Shown here: in pieces, positions 8,853 through 16,054 of the stretch
Layout: the number at the start of each line of letters is the position of its first letter
How positions within the stretch are numbered: the first letter of the stretch is position 1
Source of the DNA: Hyphomicrobiales bacterium
GTDB taxonomy: Bacteria > Pseudomonadota > Alphaproteobacteria > Rhizobiales > Rhizobiaceae
Assembly: GCA_900473685.1 (NCBI GenBank)
Contig: UCNE01000002.1
Coordinates: 62,001 to 126,000, forward strand
DNA length: 64,000 bases
Direction: 5' to 3'
The notes under the pieces: generated by a model
Told to the model about the DNA's origin: nothing
Databases searched by the model: none
Seen by the model: the letters and a program-made list of their open reading frames with translations, nothing else
Position numbers and translations under genes: made by a program

Positions 8853-8867
8853 GTTCAACTTTTGTTC
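8853..8867 (+). promoter_or_regulatory. LexA (SOS) box upstream of dinB
   Basis: A perfect alphaproteobacterial LexA operator, GTTC-N7-GTTC (GTTCAACTTTTGTTC), ending six bases before the dinB ATG. This gives direct sequence support for SOS control of the polymerase gene. Confidence 0.9.
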
Positions 8868-8873
8868 TGATCC

Positions 8874-10163
8874 ATGCAAACAGACGCGCAGCAATTTCCG
8901 GGCTTTTGCCGAGACTGCCTGACGGGCCAGCCGGCCGGCATTCGCCGTTGCCGGGCCTGCGGCAGCCCGCGCCTGCTCTATCATTCCGAACTCTACCAGC
9001 TGACGCTCGCCCATATCGACTGCGATGCCTTTTATGCGTCGGTGGAAAAACGCGACAATCCGGACCTTGCCGACAAGCCGGTGATCATCGGTGGCGGCAA
9101 GCGCGGCGTGGTCTCCACCGCTTGCTACATCGCCCGCATCCATGGCGTCCGTTCGGCCATGCCGATGTTCAAGGCGCTGGAGGCCTGTCCGCAGGCTGTC
9201 GTCATCAAGCCGGACATGGAAAAATATGTGCGGGTCGGCCGCCAGGTGCGCCTGCTGATGCAGGAACTGACACCGCTGGTACAGCCGCTGTCGATCGACG
9301 AGGCCTTTCTGGAGCTCAAGGGCACCGAGCGGCTGCATCACGATCCCCCTGCCCGGACGCTCGCAAAATTCGCCCGCCGGATCGAACAGGAAATCGGCAT
9401 CACTGTCTCGGTCGGCCTGTCCTATTGCAAGTTCCTCGCCAAGGTGGCGTCGGATTTGCAGAAGCCGCGCGGCTTTTCCGTGATCGGTGCGGCAGAAGCG
9501 CTGGATTTCCTCAAAGACAGGCCGGTGACGCTGATCTGGGGTGTCGGCAAGGCCTTTGCAGCCACCCTGGAGCGCGACGGCATCCGCACCATCGGCCAGT
9601 TGCAGACAATGGAGGAAACCGACCTGATGAAGCGCTATGGCACGATGGGCCAGCGCCTCTACCGGCTATCACGCGGACAGGACGAGCGTACCGTCGATAT
9701 CGACGGCGAAGCCAAGAGCGTTTCCTCGGAGACGACCTTCAACGACGATCTCTGCGACTACGACGATCTGGTCACGCATCTGCGCCGGTTGAGCGAACAG
9801 GTGGCACACCGGCTGCGCAAGGCCGACATTGCCGGCCAGACGGTCGTGCTGAAGCTGAAGACGGCCGACTTCAAAAGCCGGACGCGTAACCGCCGCCTCG
9901 ACAGCCCGACCCGGCTTGCCGACCGCATATTCCGCACCGGCATGCAACTGCTCGACAAGGAAGCCGACGGTACCAAGTTCCGGCTGATCGGCATCGGCGT
10001 CTCCGACCTTTCCAACCCCGACCTTGCCGATCCGCCCGATCTCGTCGATACGCAGGCGACCCGGCGCGCGGCGGCCGAAGCCGCGATCAATACCCTGCGC
10101 GACAAGTTCGGCAAAGCGACGGTCGAGACCGGCTATACCTTCGGAAAAGGGCGGCGAAAGTAG
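8874..10163 (+). CDS. dinB: DNA polymerase IV (Y-family) with N-terminal zinc-finger-like segment
   Basis: A 429-residue translesion polymerase induced by DNA damage. The catalytic palm residues are present: [12 protein letters not shown] with the first metal-binding Asp (about residue 50) and [10 protein letters not shown] (about 141-150). The steric-gate region follows in DAFYASVE. Fingers, thumb and little-finger domains continue to the C terminus. Unusually for E. coli DinB, about 40 residues precede the palm and carry CRDC (12-15) and CRAC (26-29), a likely zinc-binding knuckle. The LexA box six bases upstream fixes regulation and supports the ATG at 8874. Confidence 0.93.
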
Positions 10164-11499: not shown

Positions 11500-15006
<3,507 letters not shown>

Positions 15007-15184
15007 GGCACACCCCGATTCCTATCAAGGCCTCAGGATATCCCGTTTCCACCCGCAGATGTCCAGTTTTCATCCACTATGCGGCAGCATTTTCAAACCG
15101 GACATGGCTTGTCCACAGTCCCAGCCCCTCCCCATTTCCGCGCGGCGGCGAATGCGCAGAAATGGCCGGTGGCTGCCGCCGTTT

Positions 15185-15271
15185 TTACATCCCGATGACA
15201 ATGATCGAAAAGCTGGCGATGAACATGGCGATGGAGGTCAAAGCGGCGAGATCACGAATGAAGTCAGTCAT
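15185..15271 (-). CDS. SOS-controlled 28-residue membrane peptide
   Basis: An ATG at 15271 opens a 28-codon frame ending in TAA at 15185. The peptide starts MTDFIRDLAALTSIAMFIAS and continues with a run of Phe, Ser, Ile and Val to a final Gly-Met. A short polar N terminus (residues 1-7) precedes one hydrophobic helix (about 8-28) that would span the inner membrane. A GGGAG ribosome-binding site lies at good spacing. A sigma70-like promoter (TTGACG, 17 bp, CATTAT) gives a leader of about 23 nt, and two overlapping perfect LexA boxes cover it. Caulobacter SidA is a 29-residue, LexA-controlled membrane protein that blocks division; I infer a possible analogue, not proven homology. Confidence 0.75.
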   Translation of the reverse strand: MTDFIRDLAALTSIAMFIASFSIIVIGM

Positions 15272-15294
15272 TGGTTGGCTCCCTTTTCCTTTAT

Positions 15295-15320
15295 GTTCTC
15301 ATAATGTTCTATTTATGTTC
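15295..15320. promoter_or_regulatory. Two overlapping LexA boxes (tandem SOS operator)
   Basis: Three GTTC tetramers at 15295-15298, 15306-15309 and 15317-15320 are each separated by exactly 7 bases, forming two perfect GTTC-N7-GTTC operators that share the middle half-site. They cover the promoter of the 28-codon gene on the - strand. They also lie about 150 bp upstream of the exported-protein gene on the + strand. Confidence 0.9.
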
Positions 15321-15329
15321 ACGCGTCAA
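15301..15329 (-). promoter_or_regulatory. Sigma70-like promoter of the SOS small-peptide gene
   Basis: On the - strand, TTGACG (15329-15324) and CATTAT (15306-15301) are separated by exactly 17 bp. The predicted start is near 15294, about 23 nt before the ATG at 15271. Both LexA boxes overlap the spacer and the -10 element. Confidence 0.7.
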
Positions 15330-15472
15330 GCAGCAACTGCAAATCTTCGGTACGCCAGAATGGGAGATGGTAAACACTTTCCATCCGCTGCTCTCGGCGA
15401 GACAGCCGGTATCTGGACGCCGGCCGGATGGCCGATTAGTCTGCGCTCCAAACGCAAATCGGGGAATGATTG

Positions 15473-16054
15473 ATGAAGATGTCACTGGCCGTAATGACGA
15501 CACTGCTCAGCCTATCCGCGATTGCGGCACAGGCGGCAGACGCCATCGATCCGGATCGCATAATCTATGCTGCAACGGGCGATTGGGACAAGGACGGCAG
15601 TTCGGACCTGGCCATGCTGGTGGCGCCAGCAGCGGGCAGCGATGAGGATAACGCTGTTTATATCTATCTCAATGACGGCCGCACTGACCGGCTGAAACTG
15701 AAGACCGTGGTGCCGAACAAGGTCTGGGGCGATCTGATCATGGCCGGGCGGGCGCCATCGATCAGCGCCCTTCAGAATGGCTCGATCCTGATTACCACCC
15801 ACAACGATTCCATCGGCCGCGACCGCTGGGAACAGAAGCTGACGATCGCCTATCGCAACTTCGACTTCGCCGTGGCTGGATATACCTACACGTCCTATGA
15901 CACGCTCAACCCGGACGATACCACGGACTGCGATTTCAACGTGCTGACCGGCAAGGGTATGCGTAACGGCAAGCCGATCGCGACCAATGGCGAGCTGATT
16001 TTCCTCAAGGACTGGACAGACGATCGCGGCCAGAAGGTCTGTGGTGTGGAGTAA
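15473..16054 (+). CDS. Exported protein with FG-GAP/VCBS-like calcium-binding motif, function unknown
   Basis: A 193-residue protein with a clear signal peptide (about residues 1-22, ending AAQA). A mature-part motif GDWDKDGSSDLAML (about 36-49) matches the DxDxDG calcium loop of FG-GAP/VCBS-type repeats. No further domain is recognised. The ATG at 15473 follows a GGGGAA ribosome-binding site. The gene is on the + strand, between genes transcribed in the opposite direction. The tandem LexA operator lies upstream but is spaced for the - strand peptide, so SOS control of this gene is only possible, not shown. Confidence 0.7.
   Translation: MKMSLAVMTTLLSLSAIAAQAADAIDPDRIIYAATGDWDKDGSSDLAMLVAPAAGSDEDNAVYIYLNDGRTDRLKLKTVVPNKVWGDLIMAGRAPSISALQNGSILITTHNDSIGRDRWEQKLTIAYRNFDFAVAGYTYTSYDTLNPDDTTDCDFNVLTGKGMRNGKPIATNGELIFLKDWTDDRGQKVCGVE

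Follow-up and report, generated by a model that had tools for sequence, protein, structure and literature searches.

What does the 28-codon frame encode that lies under two overlapping LexA boxes before dnaE in this Rhizobiaceae genome, and what role can be assigned to its product? A preliminary description, made from the letters of the window (the whole 64,000-nucleotide stretch of DNA that was analysed), read it as an SOS peptide of SidA-like role in Rhizobiales, SidA being the peptide that stops division in Caulobacter. Here, we follow this reading from the frame itself to its relatives, its Caulobacter counterpart and its distribution over the Alphaproteobacteria.

The frame, its promoter and its conservation

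The minus-strand frame, whose coordinates in Table 1 include the stop codon, encodes MTDFIRDLAALTSIAMFIASFSIIVIGM according to the ORF reading of the window. Residues 8-28 are uncharged and mostly hydrophobic, which predicts one membrane helix. The frame with its ribosome-binding site, the single (predicted) hydrophobic helix, the promoter with 17-bp spacing (TTGACG-N17-CATTAT), the two perfect overlapping GTTC-N7-GTTC boxes covering it and the place upstream of dnaE were all contained in the preliminary description and have held up.

Table 1. Coordinates of the peptide locus, with the state of each feature in the 67 distinct homologous regions where applicable
Feature	Position in window	Strand	Observation
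dnaE, DNA polymerase III alpha, 1168 aa	11500..15006	-	same strand as the peptide gene, after 178 nt
Gap between peptide gene and dnaE, 178 nt, no terminator-like site on the minus strand	15007..15184	-	terminator-like sites in 3/67 regions versus 7 antisense
Gene of the predicted SOS membrane peptide (distant SidA homologue), 28 codons	15185..15271	-	28 aa in 67/67 distinct regions, pN/pS 0.30
Ribosome-binding site AAGGGAG, 7 nt 5' of ATG	15279..15285	-	Shine-Dalgarno-like motif in 66/67 distinct regions
Second, overlapping predicted LexA box GAACATTATGAGAAC, over the -10 element	15295..15309	-	perfect in 30/67 distinct regions
Predicted -10 element CATTAT, 17 nt from the -35 element	15301..15306	-	A2 and T6 at that distance in 44/67 relatives
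Upstream predicted LexA box GAACATAAATAGAAC, inside the promoter spacer	15306..15320	-	perfect in 57/67 distinct regions
Predicted -35 element TTGACG	15324..15329	-	TTGA[ACT] at -64 to -50 in 67/67 distinct regions

Could a chance ORF simply have come to lie under a chance box? A single GTTC-N7-GTTC box is indeed near expectation (3 in the 64-kb window versus 1.88 expected) and thus not significant alone, so that conservation has to decide. A tblastn search with the peptide in 61 genomes (E up to 1) gave matches in 31 of them, namely in all 26 genomes of the genus, the own one included, in four others of the family, one of these only at E=0.015, and in a doubtful one from another family. A profile search of the family returned 287 of 394 genomes with E up to 1; the weak end of this range is noise, and matches near E=1, many of them noise, were left uncounted. 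A scan of named genomes yielded 52 loci, from Rhizobium/Pararhizobium, Rhizobiales isolates, Shinella, Sinorhizobium medicae, Agrobacterium cavarae, Ciceribacter, Xaviernesmea, Ferranicluibacter and three MAGs (one labelled Arenimonas), together with three Aureimonas frames. The tblastn search, the family profile (among the matches listed) and the named-genome scan, minus the Aureimonas frames, combine to 98 loci, which include some genomes twice and were collapsed to 67 distinct regions of 200 nt.

Across these regions the frame is constant and invariant in length, ending in TGA (42), TAA (20) or TAG (5). Mean pS is 0.571 and mean pN 0.170, with pN the smaller value in 2011 of 2016 pairs; the peptide is under purifying selection. 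R6, A10, S13 and F17 are invariant in the 50 distinct Rhizobiaceae-type peptides. At -56 to -20, 67/67 regions have a LexA box that deviates in no more than one position and is perfect in 59, accompanied by the -35 element throughout. Conservation of frame and boxes in relatives and a synonymous/nonsynonymous ratio away from 1, on which the preliminary description had let its reading depend, are thereby observed. As frame, length, box and -35 are conserved in every distinct region, and the dnaE regions gave 0 matches in the controls (antisense strand, and shuffles screened with the perfect box), the 28-codon frame is a real gene; coincidence is refuted by conservation, its probability being negligible.

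The three Aureimonas matches (L108-L110) were rejected as relatives, being 47-aa frames with neither box nor dnaE, and the match L148 was rejected as well. In Aureimonas psammosilenae, three copies of a frame with MIRDLAALASIGLFLASF or similar are seen at about position 4001 of L108, L109 and L110. Searches of Pfam, PHROGs, PDB sequences and plasmids with the peptide or its Caulobacter counterpart returned nothing useful.

On the plus strand, the boxes read GTTCTCATAATGTTC (15295-15309) and GTTCTATTTATGTTC (15306-15320), with the half-site GTTC at 15306-15309 common to both. Of the two, the upstream box forms the core, as it is perfect in far more regions than the second (Table 1), while both are perfect in 28/67; the double perfect box is a common variant. 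The promoter pattern occurs once in the 701-nt region, versus a mean of 0.3 in shuffles, and would give an mRNA leader of about 23 nt. Genome-wide, GTTC-N7-GTTC is modestly enriched (160 occurrences versus 120 for the reversed pattern), TTG followed by a box is found in 20 places versus 6 for the reversed pattern (the present site and the one before dinB in the window were inspected), and the triplet GTTC-N7-GTTC-N7-GTTC has a single occurrence in 5.5 Mb, at the peptide promoter. The genome's own lexA (model match C4:20396-21097, minus strand) has GTTC-N7-GTTC at C4:21149-21163, about 40-50 bp before its start, and therefore this type of box is used here; GTTCN7GTTC is described as the Caulobacter motif too (PMC12700426).

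Two further genes of the window may be mentioned. The gene of a DinB-like Y-family polymerase (8874-10163, plus strand; Pfam IMS, E 4.9e-46), the second SOS-type gene of the window, is preceded by a perfect GTTC-N7-GTTC box at 8853-8867, whose end is 6 nt from the ATG. The peptide gene is adjoined by a divergent gene for a 194-aa protein (15470-16054, plus strand) that is without a match in Pfam and whose N-terminus resembles a signal sequence; it is present beside the peptide in many, not all, relatives.

Relationship to SidA of Caulobacter

SidA is described as a 29-aa SOS-induced inner-membrane protein (PMC4211646). Its gene is listed as CCNA_02004 (PMC11034885), CCNA_02005 as a nucleoside hydrolase (PMC3667746) and Caulobacter dnaE as CC1926 (PMC1839093). 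In our genome set, the genus g535 presumably corresponds to Caulobacter and the family f115 to Caulobacteraceae, judging from HfaA, the nucleoside hydrolase neighbour and the SidA model. The HfaA model (NF037934), which among 14 control genomes is positive in Caulobacter vibrioides alone, scores above its cut-off in 12 of 385 genomes of the class, spread over five families, with the best score in f115; the NCBIfam model NF033228 (cell division inhibitor SidA) passes in one of the 385, likewise from f115. In g535, a peptide of 29 aa stands before dnaE in 15 loci, among the matches listed, and NF033228 matches it over 29/29 positions (E=2e-20). A nucleoside hydrolase motif lies beside it, facing away, in seven of the nine g535 loci inspected, and the neighbour in L230 was confirmed as a nucleoside hydrolase (Pfam IU_nuc_hydro, E 7.5e-78). 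Since the SidA-model match, the nucleoside hydrolase neighbour and the published locus numbers agree, these lines jointly establish that SidA itself is the peptide directly before dnaE in Caulobacter.

Of the 119 genomes of f115, 112 are dnaE-bearing; 50 regions were fetched and 49 tested, L245 not being oriented. A boxed peptide with at most one mismatch in the box is carried by 44 of the 49, 24 of them with a perfect box, and antisense and shuffle controls gave 0. The remaining five regions fail this test; in two of these genomes (G1064, G851), SidA-model matches below the cut-off lie just upstream of dnaE.

How close, then, is the window peptide to SidA? Compared by hhalign, the alignments of Rhizobiaceae and Caulobacteraceae peptides correspond gap-free from the Met through residue 19 (Prob 90.5, E 1.4e-6), and with the order-wide alignment the values become Prob 92.1 and E 6.3e-7. 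The hhalign score was reached by 0 of 300 column shuffles, and by 1 of 300 when the N-terminus and the rest were shuffled apart. The first Caulobacteraceae alignment (A4) consisted of 29 hand-picked rows and left out L266, L267 and L272, which have no R6 and no W19; repeated with all 39 distinct Caulobacteraceae peptides, the comparison gave E 3.8e-6 and 1.5e-6, with 0 of 200 shuffles as good. The excess in a full-length ungapped matrix is weaker (48/3000 and 99/3000 column shuffles as good) because the C-terminal halves differ. Along the aligned part, R6, [DE]7, A10, [LF]11, S13 and F17 recur for the most part with unchanged spacing to the Met.

The window peptide is thus related to Caulobacter SidA in sequence, by hhalign and shuffles, and also resembles it in size (28 versus 29 aa) with one hydrophobic, here predicted, helix, in a predicted SOS box GAAC-N7-GAAC over the promoter, and in a gene that immediately precedes dnaE and has its orientation. 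These are the marks of the wider SidA family. It differs in residing in Rhizobiaceae, in its C-terminus, which is without FVWMM, and in going unrecognized by NF033228, which finds no match to it at E up to 10 nor any in its own genome, and whose 35-bit cut-off for SidA in the strict sense it therefore does not reach. This test is a narrow one, as two of eight dnaE-linked Caulobacteraceae peptides fail it too, at 18.0 and 28.5 of 35 bits, while six pass. The C-terminal difference is systematic: W19 stands in 29/29 rows of A4 and in 36 of the 39 distinct Caulobacteraceae peptides, whereas 47 of the 50 Rhizobiaceae-type peptides, the window peptide among them, have A19, so that the Caulobacteraceae signature F17-V-W19-M20 is absent from it. 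Because NF033228 does not recognize it and the C-terminal signature is missing, we classify the peptide, by its sequence, as a distant homologue and positional counterpart of SidA, not as SidA in the strict sense.

A proposed division brake and its alternatives

With this homology, the conserved frame, box and promoter support the reading of the preliminary description as an SOS peptide, and suggest, by descent, a SidA-like role. We consider it about three-quarters probable that the gene encodes a LexA-controlled, single-helix inner-membrane peptide that halts division through docking of its helix on FtsW/FtsI/FtsN. That it acts as a division brake is strongly inferred by analogy with SidA, which is reported to block division via FtsW, and to interact also with FtsN in the two-hybrid system, with mutations in FtsW or FtsI bringing relief (PMC4211646).

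The mechanism might proceed as follows. In undamaged cells, LexA would sit on the conserved GAAC-N7-GAAC sites over the promoter. Upon DNA damage, RecA would trigger LexA cleavage, allowing a short-leader mRNA to be made and the peptide to be translated. From the sequence and the positive-inside rule, the N-terminus with D3-R6-D7 should stay inside, with residues 8-28 crossing the membrane. The conserved face of the helix (positions 6/7, 10, 14, 17, 21, 24 and 28) could then dock on the septal synthase FtsW/FtsI/FtsN, holding it inactive until repair is done, as suggested by SidA. The transcript may further run into dnaE, joining the division brake to the supply of replicative polymerase.

The positions of this face derive from the class-wide alignment, where the conservation signal is strongest close to the periodicity of a helix (p 0.0016-0.030 in eight settings of range and measure; 104 peptides, with an effective number of about 18); within Rhizobiaceae alone the periodicity is not significant (p 0.11-0.15). 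In the periodicity set, as in the ungapped matrix, the L164 peptide was entered with M at a GTC codon, which is no start; the helix columns are unaffected. With one face conserved and the length almost constant, docking to a partner helix is a better explanation than unspecific damage to the membrane. A precedent for the site is provided by YneA, described as binding TM7 of FtsW; in AlphaFold 3 models of low confidence, SidA is likewise placed at TM7, on the opposite side (PMC13396833). YneA (Bacillus subtilis), SosA (Staphylococcus aureus) and ChiZ (Mycobacterium tuberculosis) are presented in the same source as damage-induced small membrane division inhibitors, FtsW being the shown target for YneA and a modelled one in other cases (PMC13396833). 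Likened by description, YneA differs in its outer LysM domain and SosA in its extended helix (PMC13396833).

A peptide of the same family could, for instance, have turned to a membrane target outside the divisome, such as another synthase or a protease. The alignment to SidA is limited to the N-terminal 19-22 residues, and the C-terminal half, with FVWMM in most Caulobacteraceae, is replaced in the window peptide, as such a change of partner would have it; length, place, regulation and conserved positions, however, are those of a proven division inhibitor, and we regard another target as unlikely. A SOS-controlled toxin would be a different solution in the same size class. TisB-type SOS toxins have a long leader with antisense RNA control. 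TisB is described as a SOS-induced peptide of 29 aa and DinQ as a toxic single-helix peptide with antisense RNAs, so that these Escherichia coli peptides match ours in size, SOS control and one hydrophobic helix, and a peptide of this kind would depolarize the membrane and slow the cell while being checked by antisense RNA. They share with it neither leader nor place. The predicted leader of about 23 nt with a good Shine-Dalgarno sequence leaves little room for antisense control, an Rfam search of 14700-15700 at E up to 1 returned no match, and positions 8-28 are chargeless, whereas charged and polar residues are reported to matter for TisB; these points disfavour a TisB-like type I toxin. Together with the homology to SidA, and with a conserved helix face and a fixed place before dnaE that suit a specific partner, they make it very unlikely.

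The link to dnaE raises the question of whether the frame acts in cis. Downstream on the same strand, dnaE was found in 98/98 kept loci among the matches listed, at a distance varying from 100 to 648 nt, and in 44 of 49 Caulobacteraceae regions the boxed peptide stands in this place as well. As the loci were retrieved via the peptide, the linkage is independent evidence. The peptide gene and dnaE are probably co-transcribed, at least in part: a gap without a terminator-like site, the rarity of such sites in relatives (Table 1) and a small ORF in the dnaE1 5'-UTR of S. meliloti make run-on of the transcript into dnaE likely. This ORF, sORF25, is reported as translated by Ribo-seq (PMC10117765). 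In S. medicae, four ORFs of at least 10 aa precede dnaE, of which the 28-aa homologue is the sole one with a Shine-Dalgarno sequence; sORF25 is therefore probably the counterpart of the window peptide. The main text of that paper is without occurrence of LexA. The claim of the preliminary description that genes of this kind are missed because they are too short is only partly right, as Ribo-seq has detected a small ORF at the corresponding place in S. meliloti (PMC10117765).

Given dnaE on the same strand in every kept locus, the few terminator-like sites in between and the placing of sORF25 among possible uORFs (PMC10117765), the frame could be a leader whose translation regulates dnaE, the peptide itself being inactive. 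This would leave unexplained why the amino-acid sequence is conserved (pN/pS 0.30), it sits poorly with a gap of varying length, and the Caulobacter counterpart is reported to work in trans when expressed from a plasmid under a xylose promoter (PMC4211646). We therefore hold a pure leader function to be quite improbable, and retain the LexA-controlled division brake as the preferred reading.

In the portions of the literature covered, recent SOS literature included, we found no rhizobial SidA, no named effector for the division stop after DNA damage in rhizobia and relatives, and, outside Caulobacter and beyond the Ribo-seq of sORF25, no induction, localization or phenotype for the peptide. 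If the reading is true, rhizobia and their relatives gain such an effector, dozens of natural variants become available for mapping the FtsW/FtsI/FtsN contact, and a SOS transcript shared with dnaE is predicted.

Distribution and origin in the Alphaproteobacteria

In the order, a wider profile found 21 of 397 genomes at E up to 0.01, of which 12 lie outside the family; among these 12 loci, dnaE is downstream in 11 and a perfect box within 150 nt upstream in 10, with peptides such as MTAYIRDVAALGALMLFIAMVSLWSDLLVHVV. The class search started from dnaE instead: 128 of 142 genomes are dnaE-bearing, and 67 regions were tested, with L183 (not oriented) and L191 (too short) left out, for a single-helix ORF of 26-45 aa with a perfect box 20-90 nt upstream. 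Such an ORF is present in 12 of the 67, 11 of them in other orders, against 0 in antisense and 0 in 20 rounds of dinucleotide shuffling; no perfect-box peptide was found in the other 55. With one box mismatch allowed the count rises to 14, against 0 in antisense and a mean of 0.05 in shuffles; one of the 14, L198, appears to be coincidental.

The Rhizobiaceae and Caulobacteraceae peptides are bridged by some Rhizobiaceae without a convincing profile match, with peptides such as MLEITKDLLSLAALSGFVFSLTLLVHAV, boxed and before dnaE in 6 of 29 loci. Boxed peptides at dnaE in other families and orders provide bridging sequences as well. Two of the 29 could not be oriented and were unreadable; in this sample, picked for lack of a convincing match, 20 of the 27 readable regions have no such peptide in front of dnaE. 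In genus g98, the region in front of dnaE lacks both a perfect LexA box and a small hydrophobic ORF in 8/8 genomes (L284, L286, L289, L295, L300, L301, L303 and L305), and therefore the gene can be lost or moved. The genomes of g98 measure 6-7 Mb.

This distribution allows an evolutionary scenario whose chances we consider to be even. SidA would be no peculiarity of Caulobacter: a LexA-controlled sidA-dnaE unit, in which a division brake is tied to the supply of replicative polymerase, would have been present early in Alphaproteobacteria and survived in many families as a fast-evolving, largely overlooked micropeptide before dnaE, serving as a general SOS checkpoint effector of the class, with DnaE1 raised in the same response. 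If so, SidA would go from a peptide of one family to a checkpoint peptide across much of the class. Some of the very diverged boxed ORFs of other families may be separate in origin.

Boxed single-helix ORFs before dnaE are seen in several other alphaproteobacterial families, in L159, L161, L165, L167, L174, L178, L185, L190, L192, L202, L206 and L219. Locus L164 also has a boxed ORF before dnaE, which is 47 aa long and starts from GTG.
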